Source: Planctomycetota bacterium
GTDB lineage: Bacteria > Planctomycetota > UBA1135 > UBA2386
Direction: 5' to 3'
DNA length: 8,853 bases
Assembly (NCBI GenBank): GCA_020425885.1
Contig: JAGQRA010000721.1
Location: 1-8,853, forward strand
Shown here: one piece after another, positions 1-8,853 of the stretch
Position numbering within the stretch: position 1 is the stretch's first letter
How the letters are laid out: every line of letters begins with the position of its first letter
Program-made: the position numbers and the translations under genes
Notes under the pieces: model-generated
What the model was told of the DNA's origin: nothing
What the model saw: the letters and a program-made list of their open reading frames with translations, nothing else
Databases searched by the model: none

Positions 1-116
1 CAGCGTCCGCCCCGTACCGCGGCTCGGCTTGCGGCCAGTAATCCTTCGCGTGCGTTGCGGGAGCCGCCCGCGCTCGGAAGAACGGAAATGCGGAGGGTCG
101 GGGGGGAGCGCAGCAT
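1..116 (-). pseudogene. tnpB: Fragment resembling the start of IS66 TnpB
   Basis: A second minus-strand frame starts with ATG at 116, overlapping the run-on tail of tnpA. It begins MLRSPPTLRISVLPSA, resembling the usual IS66 TnpB beginning (ML.LPP.VRI.V). In intact TnpB this is followed by a conserved stretch with VDMRK..DGL, which is absent here in all frames. About 15 residues match and the remainder does not, so I read it as a TnpB remnant cut off by deletion or rearrangement. The match is short and could be chance. Confidence 0.35.
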
Positions 117-406
117 GGCGGCAGCGCCTGGTCCAGATCGCGCAGCCAGACGACGTCCGTGCCAGCTGATGCCGAGATCTCGATGTCGGCAACGCGAACG
201 ACAACTTCCCTGTGGCCAGCAGGCGTGACCTCCACCTCGACGAACTGCTCGCCGCCTCGACGACGAGCAGGCTCCTGTCGCAGACGCCAGCTCCACCACG
301 ACAGCGTCCCGAACGGGATCCCCGTCTTCTTGGACAGCTCCCGAAGGGTCAGACCCTGGCGCTCACGCCGCGCCAGCAGCGCGGCCATCTCGTTGCGTCG
401 TTGCAT
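1..406 (-). CDS. tnpA: IS66-family accessory protein TnpA, open at window edge (probably degraded 3' end)
   Basis: Reading the minus strand from the ATG at 406 gives a protein starting MQRRNEMAALLARRERQGLT. An IS66 TnpA-type helix-turn-helix follows (about residues 19-42, with LRELSKKTGIPFGTLSWWSW), then a basic linker and a beta-rich C-terminal part ending in WLRDLDQAL at about residues 87-95. This matches the usual layout of the small TnpA protein of IS66 elements, a DNA-binding accessory factor for transposition. Family members normally stop just after the LRDL..AL motif. Here there is no stop, and the frame runs to the window edge through unrelated proline- and alanine-rich residues, so the real conserved protein ends near position 122 and the rest looks like read-through. 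An in-frame stop lies upstream of the ATG at about 451-453, with no other ATG between. Family identity is fairly sure; intactness is doubtful. Confidence 0.75.
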   Translation of the reverse strand, partial: MQRRNEMAALLARRERQGLTLRELSKKTGIPFGTLSWWSWRLRQEPARRRGGEQFVEVEVTPAGHREVVVRVADIEISASAGTDVVWLRDLDQALPPCCAPPRPSAFPFFRARAAPATHAKDYWPQAEPRYGADA

Positions 407-629: not shown

Positions 630-956
630 ATGCAAGACACCAGCAACCTCGAGAAGGCAATCGCCTTCTCTTTCGTGGCCGCGCTCGCAACGAGCTGCGG
701 TACCGTAGCTCCGGAGAGTGCCGGCAAAACGCCGGTCTGCCAGGAGTGCTTCGACGCGGTGAGTCGTGCTCGAGTCGACCATCCGGCATCGGGCCCCACC
801 CACAACGAGGTCTTGCGGACCTACCAGTGCCCATGCTGCAAGACGCAGATGTCCGTCTACATCGCGAACGGAGTGCACATGGTCAAGTGTGGCGGCTGCG
901 CGGTCGACGGCGTCGCCTGGGACCGCTGCAGTTCGTCGCCGCACGACGGCCGGTAG
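630..956 (+). CDS. Small Cys-rich putative lipoprotein, function unknown
   Basis: This 108-residue protein has an excellent ribosome-binding site. A hydrophobic segment at residues 10-22 ends in a lipobox-like LATSC (Cys23), so it is probably exported and lipid-anchored, although the n-region has only one lysine and two acidic residues. The mature part has three CxxC pairs (CQEC 37-40, CPCC 67-70, CGGC 87-90) plus Cys100, resembling zinc-ribbon or rubredoxin-like metal knuckles. The central part reads RTYQCPCCKTQMSVYIANGV. I do not recognise a named family. It precedes the Met-rich gene by 109 bases on the same strand, so it may be co-expressed with the metal/redox cluster, but a weak inverted repeat and a leader hairpin lie between them. 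A role in metal binding is an inference from cysteine content and context. Confidence 0.75.
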   Translation: MQDTSNLEKAIAFSFVAALATSCGTVAPESAGKTPVCQECFDAVSRARVDHPASGPTHNEVLRTYQCPCCKTQMSVYIANGVHMVKCGGCAVDGVAWDRCSSSPHDGR

Positions 957-1065: not shown

Positions 1066-2079
1066 ATGACGAACATGAGAAAAGAGAAGACGCGAGTCTA
1101 TTCCCTCGCCTTGGCGTGCGCCCTCATCGCGGGGGCTACAGCAGCGGCTCAGGCGCCGCCGACGGGGCACGAAGACCACAAGCAGCACGCAGAGCACGTG
1201 GGTCAACAGGAGCCCTCGCTCGCCGACCAGATTGCGGAGCTCAGGGCCAAGGTCGCGAAGCTCGAAACCGCTCTGCTTCAGAATCACCAGGGCCAGTCTC
1301 AACAGCCGGCAGGACAGGGACCCGCAGCGGGCGGCATGCAGGCAACTGGGGGCATGGGAACAGCAGCCCCTAGCGGGTCGATGGGCATGGGCGGAATGGC
1401 ATCCTCTGGCATGGGCGGCATGGGTAGCAGTGGCATGGGGATGGGCGGAATGGGCATGGGCAAGACGGGTGGCGGCATGGGCATGGACGGCATGGGCATG
1501 GGTGGCATGCGCATGGGCATGGGAATGAGCGGCATGAACATGAGCGCATCCGGCTCCATGGCACCTTCGCAAGCGACCGACAGCTCGAGCATGTCCATGG
1601 GACCGATGCCCGGCATGGGGCAGAGCCAATCGAGACAGATGCGGATGATGGGCTCGATGGGCCAAGCGTCCGCCTCTCGGACGGCCGTTCTGTCGGTCCT
1701 GCCGGGCTTCCCAGGAGCGTCGCACATCTACCACATCGGCGCCAACACCCACTTCCTGGACTACGCGGAGGCGTTGGGGCTTTCTCACGAGCAGCACCGG
1801 CAACTGTCAGAACTCCACGCGCAGTCAGAGCTGCAACAGAACGACATGCAGCGCTCCCTGGACAAGCTCGAGCAAGACCTGTGGGTGCTCACGAGCGCTG
1901 GCCAGCCGGATGGCGATGCGATCAGTCGCAAGATTCGGGAGATCGCGACACAGACAGCAGAGATGCGGCTGCAGTTCATTCGCAGCGTCGGCGAGGCGGC
2001 GAGCGTGCTGACGGACGCCCAGCGTCGACAGCTGGTCGGCGACTACGCAACCGATACTGATGCTCAGAGCGGCAAATGA
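1066..2079 (+). CDS. Secreted Met- and His-rich protein with Spy/CpxP/ZraP-like C-terminal domain
   Basis: This 337-residue protein starts at an ATG preceded by GGAGAG; an alternative in-frame ATG lies at 1075. A Sec signal peptide (basic n-region, hydrophobic core residues 11-27) is probably cleaved after Ala-Ala-Ala at about 28. The mature N-terminus is His-rich (GHEDHKQHAEH, 34-44). A short amphipathic coiled-coil-like helix follows at 51-72. Residues 91-200 form a low-complexity Gly/Met/Ser tract with 30 methionines, of the kind known to bind Cu(I) in periplasmic copper proteins. The C-terminus (about 228-327) is helical with two LTxxQ-type motifs, LSHEQ (239-243) and LTDAQ (315-319), typical of the Spy/CpxP/ZraP envelope-stress and metal-binding family. 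The likely role is periplasmic metal binding or buffering, probably copper. Its stop overlaps the next start (ATGA). Metal identity is inferred. Confidence 0.85.
   Translation: MTNMRKEKTRVYSLALACALIAGATAAAQAPPTGHEDHKQHAEHVGQQEPSLADQIAELRAKVAKLETALLQNHQGQSQQPAGQGPAAGGMQATGGMGTAAPSGSMGMGGMASSGMGGMGSSGMGMGGMGMGKTGGGMGMDGMGMGGMRMGMGMSGMNMSASGSMAPSQATDSSSMSMGPMPGMGQSQSRQMRMMGSMGQASASRTAVLSVLPGFPGASHIYHIGANTHFLDYAEALGLSHEQHRQLSELHAQSELQQNDMQRSLDKLEQDLWVLTSAGQPDGDAISRKIREIATQTAEMRLQFIRSVGEAASVLTDAQRRQLVGDYATDTDAQSGK
1336..1662 (+). repeat. Low-complexity GGCATGGGC-type tract encoding Gly-Met repeats
   Basis: Short units such as GGCATGGGCATGGGC and GGCGGAATGGGC recur imperfectly through this stretch and encode the Gly-Met-rich domain of the secreted protein. 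Codons vary (GGC, GGA, GGG, GGT), so the tract is conserved at protein level and not a recent exact DNA expansion. Such tracts are prone to length change by slippage. Long opposite-strand open frames here are a by-product of the composition. Confidence 0.6.
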
Positions 2080-3971
2080 AGCGACTGCCCGCACGGAAGG
2101 AAGGCACGAGCAGCCGCTCCACCTGGTTTTCGGCCATGCGCGCGATCGCGGTCGGCATCGCGTTGGGCGTCGGCGCAGCGGCGCAGGTTTCGCCTGCGGA
2201 GCACGCCAAGCACCATCCTGGGCAGCAAGGCCCCGGGCAGCAAGGCGCAGGTGCGGCCCCGGGCAGCCAGGCAGACGGCGCCGGTGATGCTGGCGGGATG
2301 GGAGAAATGATGAAGAGCATGGGCGTGCCACCGCCCAAGGAGCTCTACCCATCCTTGATGGCGTTGCCCGATCTTCCCCTCGAGGCGCGTGCCGAGGTAC
2401 AGGCCAAGGCGCACGAGCGCATGAGGTCGGGGACGTCCCGAATGTCGGAAGGACTCGACCGCCTCGCAGCTGCGGCACCAGGCAGCGACTGGCAGCTGAT
2501 GCAGGCGGCCGTGGCGATGATCCGTGATGGCGTGGCAGAACTCGACAGTGGTCTCGCGGCGCACCGCGCGCTGGCCGAGGGCCAGGCACCGCGCAGCGTG
2601 GCGATGCGCTGGTTCAAGACCGAGATGAGCATGCTATCGCCCGTGTCGCAACCGGTATCGCCGGGGCCGATGGGGCTCGGGTGGTTCCACTTCTCGGCGA
2701 TGGTCGCGTTGATCGCGTTCACTGGGGCGATGGTATGGATGTACTTCCACAAGATGCGACGGGCAGCAAGCCTCATCGACGCCCTTACCGAGCGCCGCGG
2801 GGGCAGCCAGGAAGCAGGAGGCCTGGGCGCAGCAACCGAGGCCACTGCCTCGGCGGCAGGGAGGAGCAGTTCTGAAGCGAGCCGGTCAGCGACGAAGCCG
2901 GGACGTTGGGCGGGCAAGCTGCGCATCTGTCGAGTGTTCGAAGAGACGCCGACGATCAAGACCTTCCGACTGATCGCGGAAGGCGGGTCGGTGGTTCCAT
3001 TCCAGTTCCAGGCGGGTCAATTCCTGACTGTGGCGGTGAAGATCGGAGAGAAGGTCGTCAAGAGGTCGTACACGATTGCCTCGGCACCCAGTGTCCAGGG
3101 CTACGTGGAGATCACCGTCAAGCGCGAGGAGAACGGGACGGTGTCGAAGCACCTTCATGACCAAGTCAAAGAGGGCGACGCGCTCGACGTCTCCGCCCCG
3201 ATGGGCAAGTTCTGCTTCACGGGAAAGGAATCGTCGAGCATCGTGCTGATCGGCGCCGGCGTCGGGGTTACGCCGCTGATGAGCGTCGTCCGCTACCTGA
3301 CGGACATCGGATGGCCGGGACACGTCACGCTGCTGTTTGCATGCCGCGACCAACGTGAGTTCCTGTTCCGCGCCGAACTGGAGGCGTTGCAGCGGCGCCA
3401 TTCGAATCTGTCGGTAGTGACGACACTCACACGCGAAGAGGACGAGTCGTGGAAGGGCCCGCGCGGTCGCTTGACCAAGGACATGATCGCGAGCTCGGTG
3501 CCCGATTTGCCCAAGCAGCGGATCCACGTCTGCGGGCCGAAACCGATGATGGAAGCGACGAAGGACATCCTCGCGGAACTCGGCGTACCGGCGGCGAACA
3601 TCAAGACCGAGGCGTTCGGTGGCAGCAAAGAGAAGCTGCGCGGCAGCAGCGGCGACCCGCAAGACGCGGAGGGTGTGGCTCGCGCTGTCGACACTCCCGA
3701 TGTCGCCACGCAAGCCAGCGTGGCCTTCGCTCGGTCCGGCAAGAGCGGCTCCTTCGAAAGGGACGACACGATCCTGGACGTGGCGGACCGGATCGGGGTC
3801 GATATCGACAACTCCTGCCGCGCGGGTACGTGCGGCTCGTGCAAGGTCCGGCTCATCGAGGGGGCGGTCGAGATGGAGATCGAGGACGGTCTCGAACTTG
3901 GCGAGAAGGAGAGTGGATGGGTCCTGGCATGCCAAGGCAAGTCATCTGCCAGTGTGAAGGTCGATGCCTGA
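2076..3971 (+). CDS. Membrane-anchored NAD(P)H:FAD/2Fe-2S oxidoreductase with periplasmic His-rich helical domain
   Basis: This 631-residue fusion has several parts. A signal sequence (about 20-36) is followed by a His-rich start (EHAKHH, 42-47) and a Gln/Gly/Pro linker. A Met- and Ala-rich helical segment (about 85-190) precedes one transmembrane helix (about 203-224) followed by KMRR, which places the rest in the cytoplasm. After a Ser/Ala linker come an FAD-binding ferredoxin-reductase barrel with RSYTIAS (330-336), an NAD(P)-binding domain with GAGVGVTP (393-400) and CGPKPMM (486-492), and a C-terminal plant-type 2Fe-2S ferredoxin with Cys581, 586, 589 and 619 (Cx4Cx2Cx29C). All cofactor motifs look intact. 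Homologous modules occur in oxygenase reductases and Hcr-type enzymes, which take electrons from NAD(P)H. The gene overlaps the Met-rich gene by 4 bases and the b-cytochrome gene by 8, so the likely electron acceptor is that cytochrome. The periplasmic segment matches no family I can name. Confidence 0.88.
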   Translation: MKRLPARKEGTSSRSTWFSAMRAIAVGIALGVGAAAQVSPAEHAKHHPGQQGPGQQGAGAAPGSQADGAGDAGGMGEMMKSMGVPPPKELYPSLMALPDLPLEARAEVQAKAHERMRSGTSRMSEGLDRLAAAAPGSDWQLMQAAVAMIRDGVAELDSGLAAHRALAEGQAPRSVAMRWFKTEMSMLSPVSQPVSPGPMGLGWFHFSAMVALIAFTGAMVWMYFHKMRRAASLIDALTERRGGSQEAGGLGAATEATASAAGRSSSEASRSATKPGRWAGKLRICRVFEETPTIKTFRLIAEGGSVVPFQFQAGQFLTVAVKIGEKVVKRSYTIASAPSVQGYVEITVKREENGTVSKHLHDQVKEGDALDVSAPMGKFCFTGKESSSIVLIGAGVGVTPLMSVVRYLTDIGWPGHVTLLFACRDQREFLFRAELEALQRRHSNLSVVTTLTREEDESWKGPRGRLTKDMIASSVPDLPKQRIHVCGPKPMMEATKDILAELGVPAANIKTEAFGGSKEKLRGSSGDPQDAEGVARAVDTPDVATQASVAFARSGKSGSFERDDTILDVADRIGVDIDNSCRAGTCGSCKVRLIEGAVEMEIEDGLELGEKESGWVLACQGKSSASVKVDA

Positions 3972-4752
3972 ACCACGCACTCGGTCCGCTGCGCAAGAAC
4001 GGGAGAGTACCGTCGTCGGCGGCCTCGTGCTGATGATTCTGGTGCTGTGGCTCGGCTTCCTGATCCATCGGTCAGCTGACTTCCCAGGGAGCGGTTTGGG
4101 GCACGCACTCGGAATTGGCGGCGCCTTGCTGATGCTCGTCCCGGCTGCGTACGTGGTCGTCAAGCGTGTCCCGAAACTGCGGAAGTCGATCACCAAGCAC
4201 GTCCCCATGCGCACCTTGCTCGCCTGGCACATCTACGCGGGGGTGCTCGGCCCCCTGCTGGTGCTGTTCCACACGGGCCATCGCTTCGAGAGTCCGCTGG
4301 CCACCGCGCTGACGGCACTGACCATCATTGTCGTCCTCAGTGGCTACATCGGTCGCTACCTGATGCGCAACATCCAAGCCGAGCTTGCGGAGAAGCGCGA
4401 CCAACTGGAACAAGTCACGGCCGAATTCGGCAGGGTGCAGGGGGCACTGGCAAATGCCGGAGATGCGCGTGCGTCGTTGACAAGGCAGCGAAGCCTGTGG
4501 CGACGGCTCTCCGGTGCGTTCTTCGTGCAGGATGCTCGGCAGGACCCGGTCCTTGCAGCCCTGGTTCCAAGGGCGCTGCGAGTCGTCGAGTCCCGTGCCG
4601 ACCTGGAGTATGCCATCGGCACTCATGAACGCTTCAAGCGGTGGTTCGGCAGGTGGCTTCGATGGCACATCGTCGTCAGCTGCGGGCTCTACCTCCTCCT
4701 TGGGCTCCACGTTTGGGCGGCGATCTACTTCGGTCTGAGGTGGTGGCCATGA
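3964..4752 (+). CDS. Di-haem b-type membrane cytochrome, ferric-reductase/NOX-like
   Basis: This 262-residue membrane protein has five predicted transmembrane helices: about 16-34, 45-67, 83-103, 110-133 and 234-258. Helix 3 carries His89 and His103 (WHIYAGV...LFH). Helix 5 carries His235 and His249 (WHIVVSC...LH). Both pairs are H-x13-H, the spacing that holds two stacked b haems in NADPH oxidases and ferric reductases. By the positive-inside rule (basic KRVPKLRK after helix 2, basic 135-230 loop), His89/His235 would hold the cytoplasmic-side haem and His103/His249 the periplasmic-side haem. A roughly 100-residue hydrophilic helical segment (135-230) separates helices 4 and 5 and is unusually long; it could dock the reductase. 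The start overlaps the reductase stop by 8 bases, and the end overlaps the multihaem gene by 4. It is not a classic petB or NarI sequence. The di-haem assignment is inferred from His spacing. Confidence 0.82.
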   Translation: MPEPRTRSAAQERESTVVGGLVLMILVLWLGFLIHRSADFPGSGLGHALGIGGALLMLVPAAYVVVKRVPKLRKSITKHVPMRTLLAWHIYAGVLGPLLVLFHTGHRFESPLATALTALTIIVVLSGYIGRYLMRNIQAELAEKRDQLEQVTAEFGRVQGALANAGDARASLTRQRSLWRRLSGAFFVQDARQDPVLAALVPRALRVVESRADLEYAIGTHERFKRWFGRWLRWHIVVSCGLYLLLGLHVWAAIYFGLRWWP

Positions 4753-5525
4753 GTCTGCGGGCGACTACCGGCTTGCTCCTCGCGCTCGGAGCCGTCCTCA
4801 CCGCGGCGTTGGCGTTCGAGCCTCGACTACGGAGCGTTGCATTCTGGCAGCAGCTGGCCAGCCCGGGCGAGTTGTCCGCAGCACATGCGGATCTCGCCGC
4901 AGATTGCGCGGCGTGCCATGTACCTATGCAAGGGTCTATCGCCGCCCGGTGCATCGTCTGCCACGCAAACGACGCGAGGCTGTTGCAGAGTCAGCCGACC
5001 GCGTTCCACGCGACGGTGTCGAGCTGTCGGGAGTGCCACCCGGAGCATCGGGGCAGCGGGCAATTGGTATCCACCATGGACCATTCGGCGCTCGTGGCGA
5101 TCGGACTGAAAGAACTGATGCGCAGTGCCGATCCGGAGCAGCGACAGTTCGCAGATGCCATCGCGGCACTCGGAGGAGGAGGTGCGTCCGCGAGAGGTCT
5201 GGCGCTCGCCGTGGGCGAGGTGGCCCTCGATTGTGCCGCCTGCCACGCCACGGTAGACCCGCATCTTGGGCTGTTTGGTTCCGAGTGTAGCGAGTGTCAT
5301 GGCACCAAGGCGTGGGCGGTCACAGAGTATCGGCATCCGGCGGCGCGTTCCCGTGACTGCGCCCAGTGCCACCAGGCGCCACCGAGCCACTACATGATGC
5401 ACTTCGAGATGATCTCGGCGAAGGTCGCCCGCAAGCCACATGCGCGGGTCGAGCAGTGCTACGAGTGCCATCGAATCACTTCCTGGAACGACATCCCAGG
5501 CATCGGTCGGTACAAGCACCACTGA
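4749..5525 (+). CDS. Heptahaem periplasmic c-type cytochrome
   Basis: This 258-residue protein starts at the ATG in an ATGA overlap with the b-cytochrome stop. GAGGTGG just upstream serves as ribosome site, and the longer in-frame opening from 4641 lies wholly inside the previous gene. An N-terminal hydrophobic segment (4-22) is a signal peptide or uncleaved anchor. Seven CxxCH haem-attachment motifs are present at 53-57, 68-72, 93-97, 162-166, 180-184, 204-208 and 237-241. Many extra histidines (H46, H87, H100, H112, H172, H196, H214, H218, H231, H257, H258) could act as sixth ligands. Haems 1-3 and 4-6 form two similarly spaced triplets separated by a 64-residue haem-free segment, suggesting an internal duplication of a cytochrome c7/c3-like unit. 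It probably takes electrons from the b cytochrome and passes them to a periplasmic acceptor that the sequence does not reveal. Confidence 0.88.
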   Translation: MSLRATTGLLLALGAVLTAALAFEPRLRSVAFWQQLASPGELSAAHADLAADCAACHVPMQGSIAARCIVCHANDARLLQSQPTAFHATVSSCRECHPEHRGSGQLVSTMDHSALVAIGLKELMRSADPEQRQFADAIAALGGGGASARGLALAVGEVALDCAACHATVDPHLGLFGSECSECHGTKAWAVTEYRHPAARSRDCAQCHQAPPSHYMMHFEMISAKVARKPHARVEQCYECHRITSWNDIPGIGRYKHH

Positions 5526-5539: not shown

Positions 5540-6340
5540 ATGAGCGCAAATCAGGAACGATCCACGCCGACGGCGGACGAAGGCGCTTGGTGCGAGTTCG
5601 GACATGAGGAATGGGGAAAGCGCTCGCCTCTGGCCGAAGAGACGCGCTTCTTGCGCGGCCCCCAGAACCGGGTCCGGGACCTGTGGCGTGTCGTCCGCAT
5701 AGGCGCCGAGTTCGTGCGCGGGTTTCGCGCGTTCCGCGGGCTGCCGCCGACCGTCACCGTCTTCGGTTCGGCGCGCTTCGGCGAAGGATCCCCTTGGTAC
5801 GAGCTCGCTCGTGACCTCGGTAGCCAGCTCAGTAGACAAGGGTTCGGAGTCATGACCGGAGGCGGCCCCGGCATGATGGAAGCAGCGAACCGGGGCGCAG
5901 CCGAAGCCGGTGGGACGTCCATCGGCTGCAACATCGTTCTGCCAAGGGAGCAGAAGCCAAACCAGTACGTGCAGCGCTGGACGGAGTTCCGCCACTTCTT
6001 CGTGCGGAAGGTCATGCTCGTCAAGTACAGCTGCGGGTTCGTCGCGATGCCAGGAGGCTTCGGCACGCTCGATGAGGTCTTCGAGATCGCCACCCTGATC
6101 CAGACGGACAAGGTGCACGACTTCCCGGTCATTCTGATGGGTCGCGAGTACTGGGACCCGCTGCGATCTTTCCTGGAAGGGCAGCTGCTGGAAAGGGGGG
6201 CGATCGTCAGGCTCGACCTGGATCGCCTGACGATCACCGACAACGTGGCGTCGGCCGTTACCTGTCTACGGCAATGCGCAGAACGGCGCTTCGGCATCGC
6301 GATGCCTGTTCCGCGAATGGCTGAGGAGGCAAGGCGGTGA
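5540..6340 (+). CDS. TIGR00730/LOG-family Rossmann-fold protein (putative nucleotide phosphoribohydrolase)
   Basis: This 266-residue protein carries the LOG/lysine-decarboxylase-like signatures GGGPGMMEAANRGA (107-120) and PGGFGTLDEV (171-180), with VTVFGSARF (72-80) opening the Rossmann fold. Characterised family members release the base from nucleoside 5'-monophosphates (cytokinin-activating LOG; related PpnN-type enzymes act on purine and pyrimidine nucleotides). The old label 'lysine decarboxylase' is misleading. A roughly 65-residue N-terminal extension (with WRVVRIGAEFVRGFRAFRG) is longer than in minimal LOG proteins and resembles the extended bacterial TIGR00730 type. The exact substrate cannot be told from sequence. 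It follows the cytochrome gene by 14 bases, and its stop overlaps the next start by 4, so it is probably translationally coupled to the beta-CASP gene. Confidence 0.85.
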   Translation: MSANQERSTPTADEGAWCEFGHEEWGKRSPLAEETRFLRGPQNRVRDLWRVVRIGAEFVRGFRAFRGLPPTVTVFGSARFGEGSPWYELARDLGSQLSRQGFGVMTGGGPGMMEAANRGAAEAGGTSIGCNIVLPREQKPNQYVQRWTEFRHFFVRKVMLVKYSCGFVAMPGGFGTLDEVFEIATLIQTDKVHDFPVILMGREYWDPLRSFLEGQLLERGAIVRLDLDRLTITDNVASAVTCLRQCAERRFGIAMPVPRMAEEARR

Positions 6341-7698
6341 GAGTCTCCTTCCTAGGGGCGACCGGTACCGTTACTGGCTCGAAGTACCTCGTCGAGTGCC
6401 GTGGCGGGGCCAGGGTGCTGGTGGACTGCGGCCTGTTCCAAGGGCAGAAGAACCTCAGGCAACGCAACTGGACGAGCTTCCCGGTCTCCCCCGCGAGCAT
6501 CGACGCGGTACTCCTCACGCATGCCCACATCGACCACACGGGCTATCTGCCGGCGCTCGTCAAGCATGGGTTCCGCGGGGACGTGTTCTGCACTTCCGCC
6601 ACTCGCGACCTGGCGCAGATCCTGCTCCCAGACTGTGGCTACCTCCAGGAGGAAGACGCGAGGCACGCGAACGCCAGAGGGTACTCGCGGCACAAGCCGG
6701 CAATGCCGTTGTTCACCCGGGAGGATGCTGCGGCGTGCCTGCCCCTGCTGCGGCCCGTCGACTATGGCGTCGCGCTACAAGTGGCGCCTCGTCTGAACGT
6801 GACGTTCCATCCCGCGGGGCACATCCTCGGGTCGGCGTTCCTGGTGCTCGAGGACGAGGCGACCCGGCTCCTGTTCAGCGGTGATGTCGGCCGACAACAC
6901 GACGTGCTGATGCGGCCGCCAAGCCCCATTCCCGCGGTCGACTACATCGTTTGTGAGTCGACGTATGGCGATCGGCTGCACGACCCTGCGGACGGCGCGG
7001 AGAAGCTGGCGGAGGTGATCCACAAGACCATGGTCCACGGCGGGAAAGTCGTGATCCCGGCGTTTGCAGTCGGCCGGGCACAGGCCCTCCTCTACCTGCT
7101 ATCCGGGCTACGGCTCAAGGGACGGATCCCGCGAATGCCCGTGTTCCTCGACAGTCCGATGGCCATCGACACGAGCGAGATCTACTGCCGACATCGAGCC
7201 GAACACCGGCTCGACGAGCCGTCTTGCCGAGCGACCTGTACGGTCGCCAGGTACCTGCGGACACCTGCAGAGTCGAAGGAACTCAACTCGATGGCGCTTC
7301 CGTACGTCGTCTTGTCGGCCAGTGGCATGGCAACCGGTGGTCGCGTCGTGCACCACCTGGCACGGCTGCTCCCGGATGCCCGGAACACAGTGTTGCTCGC
7401 GGGCTTCCAGGCAACGGGCACGCGCGGCCGTCGGCTCGCGGAAGGTGCGGAGACGGTGAGAATCCACGGCGATGACGTGCCGGTTCGGGCGCACGTCGAG
7501 ATGCTCCACAACTTGTCGGCGCACGCCGATCGCGACGAGCTTCTGACCTGGCTGCGCACGGCATCGCGCTCCCCGCAGTGCGTGTTTGTCACCCACGGGG
7601 AAGCCCAGGCGGCGCAGGCATTCAGCGCCCACGTTGCTGGTAGCCTCGGTTGGTCGACGATCGTCCCGGAGGATGGAGAGGTCGTGGAGCTTGGCTGA
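6337..7698 (+). CDS. Beta-CASP metallo-beta-lactamase-fold hydrolase (CPSF/Ysh1-like RNA-processing type)
   Basis: This 453-residue protein starts at GTG (6337) in a GTGA overlap with the LOG stop, with GAGGAGG eight to fourteen bases before it. The metal-binding motifs of the MBL fold are intact: HAHIDH (62-67), His162 in PAGHILGSA, Asp183 in SGDVGR, His397 in SAHAD, and His420 in THGE. The beta-CASP insert follows, with PAFAVGRAQ (241-249) and FLDSPMA (270-276), then ASGMATGG (328-335). Family members of this length are RNA endo- or exonucleases related to CPSF73/Ysh1. Bacterial copies often sit outside RNA-maturation operons and their targets are mostly unknown. All catalytic residues expected for a two-zinc site are present, so it should be active. 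Why it follows a redox cluster is not evident. Confidence 0.9.
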   Translation: MRVSFLGATGTVTGSKYLVECRGGARVLVDCGLFQGQKNLRQRNWTSFPVSPASIDAVLLTHAHIDHTGYLPALVKHGFRGDVFCTSATRDLAQILLPDCGYLQEEDARHANARGYSRHKPAMPLFTREDAAACLPLLRPVDYGVALQVAPRLNVTFHPAGHILGSAFLVLEDEATRLLFSGDVGRQHDVLMRPPSPIPAVDYIVCESTYGDRLHDPADGAEKLAEVIHKTMVHGGKVVIPAFAVGRAQALLYLLSGLRLKGRIPRMPVFLDSPMAIDTSEIYCRHRAEHRLDEPSCRATCTVARYLRTPAESKELNSMALPYVVLSASGMATGGRVVHHLARLLPDARNTVLLAGFQATGTRGRRLAEGAETVRIHGDDVPVRAHVEMLHNLSAHADRDELLTWLRTASRSPQCVFVTHGEAQAAQAFSAHVAGSLGWSTIVPEDGEVVELG

Positions 7699-8185
7699 TC
7701 CAATCGCAATGGGTGATGGAGATGCGAAGCGCCTCGGTGAGTTCGAACTGCGCGTGCGGGCGCCTGAAGGCTTGCTCTTCACGGGACCAGTCGTGGCACT
7801 CCGCGTGCCATCGGTCGATGGCCATCTCGGTGTTCTGGCCAACCATGCACCGATGCTTGCAGCTTTGAGGTGTGGCATCATGCAGGTTCTGCATCCGACC
7901 GGCGAGCGGGAAGTGATGGCCGTTGGAGACGGGTTCGCGGAGGTGACTCGCAAGGGCGTGAGCCTGGTCGTGCACTTCCTCGATTTCCCGCGCGGCATCG
8001 ATCGTCAACGGGCGCATCTTGCCATGGGCCGCGCGCTGGCGCGTCTGCGGCGCGAGACGGAGGAGGAGGGCCTGGACTTGGTTCGCGCAGAGGCGGCCCT
8101 TTGCCGCTCGATCGCCAGACTCTCTGTGTGCGGATGCGGCTGCGTCATGTGCCACGAGGCCAAGGCGGTCCCGCGCCGCGGCTGA
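7691..8185 (+). CDS. atpC: Orphan F1 ATP-synthase epsilon-subunit-like protein with Cys-rich tail
   Basis: The protein (about 164 residues from TTG 7691) has the N-terminal beta-barrel signature of AtpC: FELRVRAPEGLLFTG (18-32), then GHLGVLANHAPML (44-56). Two C-terminal helices follow (about 102-145, with IDRQRAHLAMGRALARLRRE). In F1 ATPases this subunit links gamma to the c-ring and regulates activity. No other ATP-synthase gene is in the window. The start is uncertain: TTG 7691 has GGAGAGG nine bases upstream and overlaps the beta-CASP stop by 8 bases; ATG 7709 has no clear ribosome site; ATG 7673 directly abuts GGAGG. The last about 18 residues contain CGCGCVMCH, unlike normal epsilon tails, while the +1 frame there continues with VRMRLRHVPRG. 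A frameshift near 8126-8132 is therefore possible. Confidence 0.8.
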   Translation: MADPIAMGDGDAKRLGEFELRVRAPEGLLFTGPVVALRVPSVDGHLGVLANHAPMLAALRCGIMQVLHPTGEREVMAVGDGFAEVTRKGVSLVVHFLDFPRGIDRQRAHLAMGRALARLRRETEEEGLDLVRAEAALCRSIARLSVCGCGCVMCHEAKAVPRRG

Positions 8186-8490: not shown

Positions 8491-8853
8491 ATGTTCCGCA
8501 CCGCACGACTGTTCGTCACGGCCCCCTTGATGGCTCTGCTTGCTTCCGGCGTTGCACTTGCCCAGCACGAAGGTCATGGCGGGCATACGGGCCACGAGGC
8601 TCCGCGGTCGGCGCCACCGACCAAGCAGCCTGCCCGGGTCGGCGATGCCTACCCGTTCGCGACATGCCCGATCTCCGGCAAGCAGCTGGGGACGATGGGC
8701 GACCCGGTGGTCAAGGTCTATGACGTCCGTGAAGTCCGCTACTGCTGCGGCGGCTGCCCGAAGAAGTTCGAGAAAGACCTCCAGCAGAGCCTCGCCAAGC
8801 TCGACGCGAAGATCGCCGCCGACCAGGGGCCGATCTACCCTCTGAAGACGTCG
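8491..8853 (+). CDS. Secreted His-rich protein with YHS-like Cys motif, 3' end beyond window
   Basis: The frame opens at ATG 8491 with CGAGG five bases upstream and stays open for 121 codons to the window edge. A Sec signal peptide (basic start, hydrophobic core 8-23) probably ends at ALA-QH. The mature N-terminus is His-rich (QHEGHGGHTGHE, 25-36). A domain with CPISGKQLGTMGDP (59-72) and YCCGGCPKKFEKDL (84-97) follows, resembling YHS-type metal-binding domains (Cys59, Cys85, Cys86, Cys89). The final residues PIYPLKTS echo AYPFATCPISG, where the first domain begins, so a second copy probably starts at the window edge. The family and His/Cys content suggest heavy-metal binding, possibly copper. 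It lies 305 bases downstream of the AtpC-like gene and probably has its own promoter, although none is clear. Confidence 0.78.
   Translation, partial: MFRTARLFVTAPLMALLASGVALAQHEGHGGHTGHEAPRSAPPTKQPARVGDAYPFATCPISGKQLGTMGDPVVKVYDVREVRYCCGGCPKKFEKDLQQSLAKLDAKIAADQGPIYPLKTS

Follow-up and report, generated by a model that had tools for sequence, protein, structure and literature searches.

A putative NAD(P)H-to-heptahaem cytochrome conduit encoded by three overlapping genes whose relatives often lie among copper-resistance genes

We analysed a stretch of 8,853 nucleotides from a Planctomycetota bacterium (contig JAGQRA010000721.1 of assembly GCA_020425885.1; hereafter the window) that carries three overlapping open reading frames (ORFs), ORF2, ORF3 and ORF4, together called the trio. 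They encode a reductase with flavin adenine dinucleotide (FAD), NAD(P) and 2Fe-2S motifs, a predicted di-haem b cytochrome and a seven-haem c cytochrome, and they follow a methionine-rich gene, ORF1. The features are listed below, with lengths in amino acids (aa) and transmembrane segments as TM.

1066..2079, plus strand: ORF1, 337 aa; signal-like start, Met-rich region and C-terminal Metal_resist/Spy-like domain
2076..3971, plus strand: ORF2, 631 aa; predicted periplasmic His/Met arm and helical hairpin, one TM helix, cytoplasmic FAD, NAD(P) and 2Fe-2S domains
2202..2321, plus strand: HxxHHP motif and Met cluster (M75, M78, M79, M82) of ORF2, residues 43-82, predicted periplasmic
2691..2747, plus strand: TM helix of ORF2, residues 206-224, right after the invariant H205 (hydropathy peak; model helix 203-243)
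3063..3968, plus strand: FAD motif (from residue 330), NAD(P) motif (from 393) and 2Fe-2S cysteines (581, 586, 589, 619) of ORF2
3964..4752, plus strand: ORF3, 262 aa; predicted five-TM di-haem b cytochrome
4749..5525, plus strand: ORF4, 258 aa; heptahaem c cytochrome, N-terminally anchored or exported

A first-pass annotation of this DNA had described the trio as overlapping in the order ORF2, ORF3, ORF4, and the junctions confirm it: ORF2 and ORF3 share ATGCCTGA at 3964-3971, and ORF3 and ORF4 share ATGA at 4749-4752. The FAD, NAD(P), 2Fe-2S, H-x13-H and seven CxxCH motifs that it had claimed were likewise all recovered in place. ORF4 most likely starts at 4749 (MSLRATTG...) rather than at the mechanical ORF start, 4641. 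Since ORF1 also overlaps ORF2, through an ATGA at 2076-2079, ORF1 and the trio probably form one four-gene operon.

The FAD motif of ORF2 (RSYTIAS) occupies residues 330-336, the NAD(P) motif (GAGVGVTP) residues 393-400, and the plant-type 2Fe-2S cysteines are spaced as C581-x4-C586-x2-C589-x29-C619. The protein matches the Pfam families PF00970 (FAD_binding_6), PF00175 (NAD_binding_1) and PF00111 (Fer2), and its closest PDB sequence is phthalate dioxygenase reductase (2pia, E value 2e-23). Residues 1-245 lie outside these reductase domains and constitute a signal/periplasmic/TM segment, which was absent from the first-pass description. Conservation of the arm was examined in 76 ORF2 proteins and in an alignment of 42 sequences (A5): H43, H46, H47 and H205 are invariant in the latter, W179 is also invariant, and M75, M78 and M79 of the Met cluster are conserved at 90% or more. 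The AlphaFold2 (AF2) model of residues 1-300 is of moderate quality overall (mean predicted local distance difference test, pLDDT, 71.8; predicted template modelling score, pTM, 0.40), and a helical hairpin is predicted at residues 102-168 with a pLDDT of about 90-98. Foldseek returned no match to residues 1-300 at E<=0.001; the N-terminal region has no convincing Pfam or PDB relative, and the scattered Pfam matches occur each in at most 3 of 46 alignment members. Positive residues come after the TM helix at 206-224, and the arm most likely lies outside the membrane, with the FAD/NAD/2Fe-2S part inside.

Both of the H-x13-H pairs noticed at first are located in ORF3 (H89-x13-H103 and H235-x13-H249); the count of two was incomplete, as H221-x13-H235 fits the pattern as a third. 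H89, H103, H235 and H249 are invariant in an alignment of 83 sequences (A4) and H221 nearly so. The spacing by itself is weak evidence, being found two or more times in 2.4% of shuffled ORF3 sequences; in the AF2 model (pLDDT 87) the pairs fall on helices, H89/H103 on 82-104 and H235/H249 on 195-259. ORF3 therefore has the arrangement typical of the ferric reductase domain (FRD) type, namely two bis-His pairs at H-x12/13-H spacing on two TM helices. It also has a long helical hairpin, predicted to be cytoplasmic, between TM4 and TM5, and two further invariant residues, H35 and H106, predicted to be periplasmic. Pfam gave no significant match (best E value 0.045), and single-sequence and profile searches against PDB sequences gave nothing credible. 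At least 1090 homologues were found at E<=0.001 (5.8 billion proteins searched, 7998 candidates scored), and the 120 listed of these 1090 carry neither a Pfam domain nor a functional name. In eleven loci (L005, L006, L010, L011, L019, L021, L023, L031, L037, L045 and L056) ORF3 has a C-terminal extension that brings it to about 520-580 residues; the nine extended loci that were read bear CAAVSCPDR in it, and L041 has a shortened form. We take this extension to be DUF547-like. A second ORF3 copy of Legionella anisa (the L058 genome, G018 contig C35) is damaged by internal stops, and an intact copy lies elsewhere.

ORF4 has seven CxxCH motifs, at residues 53, 68, 93, 162, 180, 204 and 237; shuffled versions contain on average 0.05 and at most 3 (20000 shuffles). 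Seven additional histidines (46, 87, 100, 112, 172, 196 and 214) are invariant in an alignment of 49 sequences (A6), enough to make every haem bis-histidinyl, and the simplest reading is that ORF4 would hold seven bis-His haems as a wire without an open catalytic site. Exactly seven motifs are present in 82 of 84 relatives (window included), one of the two exceptions being cut by a contig end and the other, at L066:8228-9562, having six because CxxCN replaces the last CxxCH. All 49 members match PF14522 and PF14537 (cytochrome c7/c3 families) at E<=0.001, a HxxPPSH stretch is near-invariant, and the protein ends in YKHH in 69 of 84. No NCBIfam model matched the ORF4 of the window at E<=0.01; NrfH was weakly matched by 21 of 49 relatives. 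The hydrophobic stretch at residues 5-23 may serve as an anchor or as a signal that is cleaved off. A Nitrospirales genome has an extra ORF with eight CxxCH motifs immediately after the trio (L034:9782-11287).

The layout originally proposed, from cytoplasmic NAD(P)H to periplasmic haems, gains support from charge bias and predicted helices, which would put FAD and Fe-S inside and the c haems outside. Electrons would pass from NAD(P)H to FAD, to the 2Fe-2S centre and to an inner haem b (H89/H235), and onward through an outer haem b (H103/H249) and the seven c haems to a periplasmic acceptor. Outward flow seems favoured because the NAD(P)H site is the only recognisable low-potential donor site. 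In this sense, we are largely confident that the trio is an electron conduit to the periplasm.

The trio would have lost credit if its genes were not found together in other genomes. We compared 85 loci, made up of 80 kept of 192 relatives from one-genome-per-species contigs, four plasmid loci and the window, and 83 of them, across about a dozen phyla, have ORF2, ORF3 and ORF4 on the same strand in this order. In the remaining two, the contig ends just after ORF3 (L036), or only a piece of ORF2 is present at the contig start, with other ORFs between it and ORF3 and two small genes between ORF3 and ORF4 (L050). An ORF is inserted between ORF3 and ORF4 in L018 (247 residues) and in L032 (487 residues). 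Among plasmid records ORF2 was found in 53, ORF3 in 52 and ORF4 in 52 (E limits 1e-60, 1e-5 and 1e-15, respectively), and 51 of 54 plasmids with any part of the trio carry all three; 32 of the 52 plasmid carriers are typed conjugative or mobilizable. Trees and distances were computed from 53 non-redundant loci of the 72 with all three genes in the length range. Pairwise distances correlate between ORF2 and ORF3 (r 0.77), ORF3 and ORF4 (0.62) and ORF2 and ORF4 (0.67); for ORF2-ORF3 the maximum r in 1000 permutations was 0.22, and shared host history raises r too. The ORF3 tree mixes phyla (15 label changes against a least possible 11), and because of this and of the many conjugative or mobilizable carriers, horizontal spread of the trio is likely, the tree itself not proving it. 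Five of 199 Planctomycetota genomes, one of them the centre of the set and already known to carry the family, have a strong full-length ORF3, and 20 more have weak, mostly partial matches, which makes the family patchy.

Three trivial explanations were discarded: a chance string of motifs, by the conservation; a contig artefact, by the identical gene order in isolates and complete plasmids; and a NADPH oxidase (NOX) fusion broken by frameshift, by the separate genes of the window and of 11 opened plasmid regions. In the Roseomonas plasmid region, ORF2 itself is annotated as two pieces.

What surrounds the trio points to copper. Enrichment was calculated for 49 of 50 genome loci hand-picked among the 80 for long contigs and spread; they were picked after their neighbours had been seen, though not by copper content, the genomes include five Legionella and three Dyadobacter and so are not independent, and the null, uniform placement, is a simple one. 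Among the matches listed, at least 35 of 49 genomes have a multicopper oxidase (PF07732) no farther than 25 kb from ORF3 (1.36 expected), and 19 have CopB (PF05275) at such a distance (0.38 expected). The control, the nickel/cobalt transporter NicO, was within that distance in 0 of 49 (0.14 expected), with 13 of its 16 entries used, one per gene. One position list leaves out the 20 weakest entries, most of which were second domains in proteins that the count included anyway. Of the 11 plasmid regions, chosen for variety and read from PLSDB gene tables, which are incomplete, seven contain genes named for copper (multicopper oxidase, CopB, CopC/CopD or copper-binding proteins).

ORF1 fits this setting. 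It has 30 Met within residues 90-210 and a C-terminal domain (residues 236-322) that matches PF13801 (E value 2.2e-7; Spy/CnrX-like), and its family has a strongly conserved LPGFPGxSHxYHxG segment. Counting the window, 46 of 85 loci have a member of this family, and in 29 of the 74 loci examined for its position it lies no more than 900 bp upstream of ORF2; four plasmid records annotate the gene upstream of ORF2 as 'periplasmic heavy metal sensor' or 'Spy/CpxP family'. A plain ferric or ferric-chelate reductase for iron uptake was also considered, as PF01794 (Ferric_reduct) has weak matches in 5 of 87 ORF3 relatives (alignment A2, E<=0.01), none of them the ORF3 of the window, and two opened plasmid records name ORF3 'iron reductase'. 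However, copper genes are strongly enriched near ORF3 and no iron-uptake gene was noticed by eye among the conserved neighbours, no aimed search having been made; we regard this function as very improbable.

Taken together, we propose that the trio is a membrane-bound NAD(P)H:multihaem-cytochrome c conduit serving copper, possibly silver, resistance, with a probability of about 0.55; that it has some role in copper or silver handling is likely. Because ORF2 has its His/Met arm, the partner protein is Met-rich and the relatives have copper genes around them, copper is the best candidate for the outlet, where Cu(II) may be reduced to Cu(I) or copper may act as a switch. Metal reduction, considered plausible from the first, is strengthened by the linkage to copper-resistance genes and by the arm. 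Cu(II) would be the most likely acceptor, captured at the HxxHH/Met arm of ORF2 and perhaps also at H35 and H106 of ORF3, and ORF1, together with Cu(I)-type efflux or storage proteins encoded in the island, might receive the Cu(I) product. We put forward Cu(II) reduction as the chemical step with some reserve, at a little under even odds.

Several observations weigh against this proposal. Regarding ORF3, residues 130-234, taken as cytoplasmic, contain only 15% K+R, similar to the outer loops; Foldseek gave no PDB match at E<=0.001, and in a second look unrelated coiled coils scored as high as the NOX protein SpNOX. Regarding copper, the general Zn/Cd-type family Cation_efflux (PF01545) is near ORF3 in 6 of 49 genomes (1.35 expected, with positions only from ORF3-bearing contigs whereas the expectation took all counts), so that a general association with metal islands accounts for part of the linkage; the linkage to copper genes is far stronger. 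Genes named for copper are absent from four of the 11 plasmid regions, which show a heavy-metal P-type ATPase in Methylophaga, RND efflux in Pontibacter, a hydrogenase operon in Glaciecola and no annotated metal gene in Methylocystis. The 8.8 kb of the window contain neither a multicopper oxidase nor CopB, and the location beside copper-resistance genes is thus seen for the relatives of the trio and not within the window itself. A multicopper oxidase within 25 kb is not listed for 14 of 49 genomes, contig ends explaining some of them.

Where they are present, multicopper oxidases raise a conflict of their own, as they oxidise Cu(I) and a reduction of Cu(II) to Cu(I) seems the opposite. Both activities might operate under a different oxygen supply, the oxidase might be the electron acceptor, or the conduit might maintain oxidisable methionines, as described in part of a study on MsrPQ and CusF (PMC9302797). 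The second option approaches an alternative oxidase or redox valve, in which electrons would go to O2, directly or via a multicopper oxidase, and relieve a copper-poisoned respiratory chain. Of the four neighbour families tested, this oxidase occurs near ORF3 in the largest number of genomes, and SpNOX is stated to reduce O2 (PMC5676040, excerpt); yet the 14 genomes mentioned above do not fit, and direct O2 reduction needs no seven-haem wire, so we find a valve unlikely. In the third option, as in MsrPQ, electrons would keep Met or other groups of periplasmic copper proteins reduced, and not copper itself. The Met-rich ORF1 and the ORF2 arm agree with this, and so does the precedent of MsrPQ, a split FRD system that is copper-induced in E. 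coli and protects the methionines of CusF (same excerpt of PMC9302797). However, neither an MsrP-like molybdoenzyme nor another sulfoxide reductase is among the nine window proteins scanned (for the molybdoenzyme, neighbours beyond the window were viewed by eye only), and the haems of ORF4 all appear bis-His, with no obvious catalytic site. Such maintenance has, in our view, a low probability.

The remaining objection comes from two plasmids, pAM1A3 (Alteromonas macleodii) and pGLAAG01 (Glaciecola), where the trio heads a [NiFe] hydrogenase operon; the next genes in line are a 407-aa hypothetical gene and those for a HynD-like protease, HupH and the hydrogenase subunits. The trio could be a reversible hub that couples the NAD(P) pool to a periplasmic redox enzyme that differs from island to island, for example a HynSL-type [NiFe] hydrogenase; in Alteromonas and Glaciecola, H2 electrons would then flow inward to NAD+. 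The cloned A. macleodii cluster is given as orf1/cyt/orf2/hynD/hupH/hynS/hynL (PMC3102683, partial text), an order in which orf1 and cyt would correspond to ORF3 and ORF4 homologues. The same portion of that work handles both as unnamed hydrogenase accessory genes, with the reductase gene outside the constructs listed, and reports Orf1 and Cyt as unnecessary for maximal HynSL activity in E. coli, which speaks against the hub. Moreover, pAM1A3 has CopC and CopD upstream of the trio as well, and hydrogenase genes occur in just 2 of the 11 plasmid regions, the genome loci not having been searched for them. A hub is rather unlikely, and a conduit that can run either way would fit both the hydrogenase and the copper contexts.

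It is possible, though we suggest it tentatively, that the trio represents an unnamed class of transmembrane electron exporters, widespread and probably dispersed by horizontal transfer, that carries out copper redox chemistry in the periplasm and has a copper-binding arm of its own on the reductase. One complex would then both sense or capture the metal and reduce it with NAD(P)H electrons led through a seven-haem wire, and copper resistance would include a reductive route, costly in energy, in addition to efflux and oxidation. As far as we found, the trio is unnamed; it recurs in about a dozen phyla and on plasmids, and its tie to copper is one of position. It makes testable whether bacteria deploy NAD(P)H-driven reduction, besides efflux and oxidation, against periplasmic copper, and gives context to an ORF3 family of at least 1090 proteins.

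Other genes were observed around the trio, the clusters of neighbours across the 85 loci being named by eye. Of the 85, 13 have F-ATPase genes near the trio, 11 of these being Legionella loci, and the genes are annotated as such on a Legionella fallonii plasmid. A dehydrogenase-like gene is a frequent neighbour (26 of 85 loci, e.g. L059:9534-10826); it is presumably glutamate/leucine-dehydrogenase-like and could supply NAD(P)H. In the window, a cut ORF with a helix-turn-helix start (1-406, minus strand) resembles, we presume, accessory transposase genes of the IS66 type, and IS66 genes are near the trio on the Bradyrhizobium BTAi1 plasmid. It is followed by a small Cys-rich zinc-ribbon-like protein (about 690-953, plus strand; weak PF13453) with a lipoprotein-signal-like start; none of the other 84 loci has a relative of it at E<=1e-4. 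Downstream of the trio, 6337-7698 (plus strand) encodes a MBL/beta-CASP/RMMBL nuclease with a relative downstream of the trio in L069, its best NCBIfam models being type VII Cas14 (379 bits, cut-off 800) and aCPSF1 (283, cut-off 580). At about 7670-8185 (plus strand) a lone ATP synthase epsilon gene has LOG and nuclease genes next to it and is the only ATP synthase subunit recognised in the window. The start of an exported His-rich Cys protein (8491-8853, plus strand; CPISGK...YCCGGC), which we take to be YHS-like, has relatives in six other loci (L018, L026, L028, L038, L045 and L051).

The trio resembles several known systems in part. ORF2 shares the FAD-NAD(P)-2Fe-2S order of PaaE, GbcB and phthalate dioxygenase reductase over residues 281-630 (GbcB match 238 bits, cut-off 500); those reductases are soluble and serve oxygenases, whereas ORF2 has a signal-like sequence and a TM helix as well as a domain predicted to be periplasmic. 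NqrF, the membrane-anchored NADH/FAD/2Fe-2S subunit through which Na+-NQR feeds electrons across the membrane, shares sequence with ORF2 in the FAD/NAD part. In NqrF, however, the Fe-S domain precedes the FAD domain, while in ORF2 it comes after and only ORF2 has a periplasmic arm; no Nqr partner subunit is among the nine window proteins scanned. ORF4 shares PF14522 and PF14537 with the cytochrome c7/c3-like families and differs from them as a fixed seven-haem family.

With SpNOX, of the NOX/FRD type, the trio would share the route from NAD(P)H through FAD to a pair of bis-His b haems, one above the other in the membrane on helices 3 and 5, and the SpNOX pairs (H69/H83 and H129/H142; PMC11564096, excerpt) have nearly the same spacing as those of ORF3. 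In contrast, the reductase of the trio forms a chain of its own and has in addition a 2Fe-2S domain and an arm predicted to bind metal in the periplasm, ORF3 is predicted to cross the membrane five times and has its long hairpin, and the outlet is a seven-haem c cytochrome. The first-pass annotation had set the trio apart from one-chain NOX enzymes, and the haem and FAD/NAD(P) domains are indeed on separate chains in the window and the 11 plasmid regions; split FRD systems are nevertheless already known, as MsrQ exemplifies. MsrPQ with Fre is similar in having a split FRD-type membrane haem protein that serves a periplasmic partner, a flavin reductase as possible donor and a link to copper stress. 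To our knowledge, MsrPQ has no seven-haem partner. Its periplasmic partner is the molybdoenzyme YedY/MsrP (PMC3591440, in part), and excerpts of two other works give the flavin reductase Fre as a potential MsrQ donor (PMC5676040) and the quinone pool as the donor (PMC11564096). No named complex of exactly these three parts was found in the open-access literature, subscription papers lying outside its coverage, in agreement with the initial view; the parts are of known kinds and their assembly was not encountered there. Because the window has no MsrP, the layout is not one-chain and PF01794 does not match, we do not file the trio under NOX or MsrPQ, although it would work like a split NOX or MsrPQ system.

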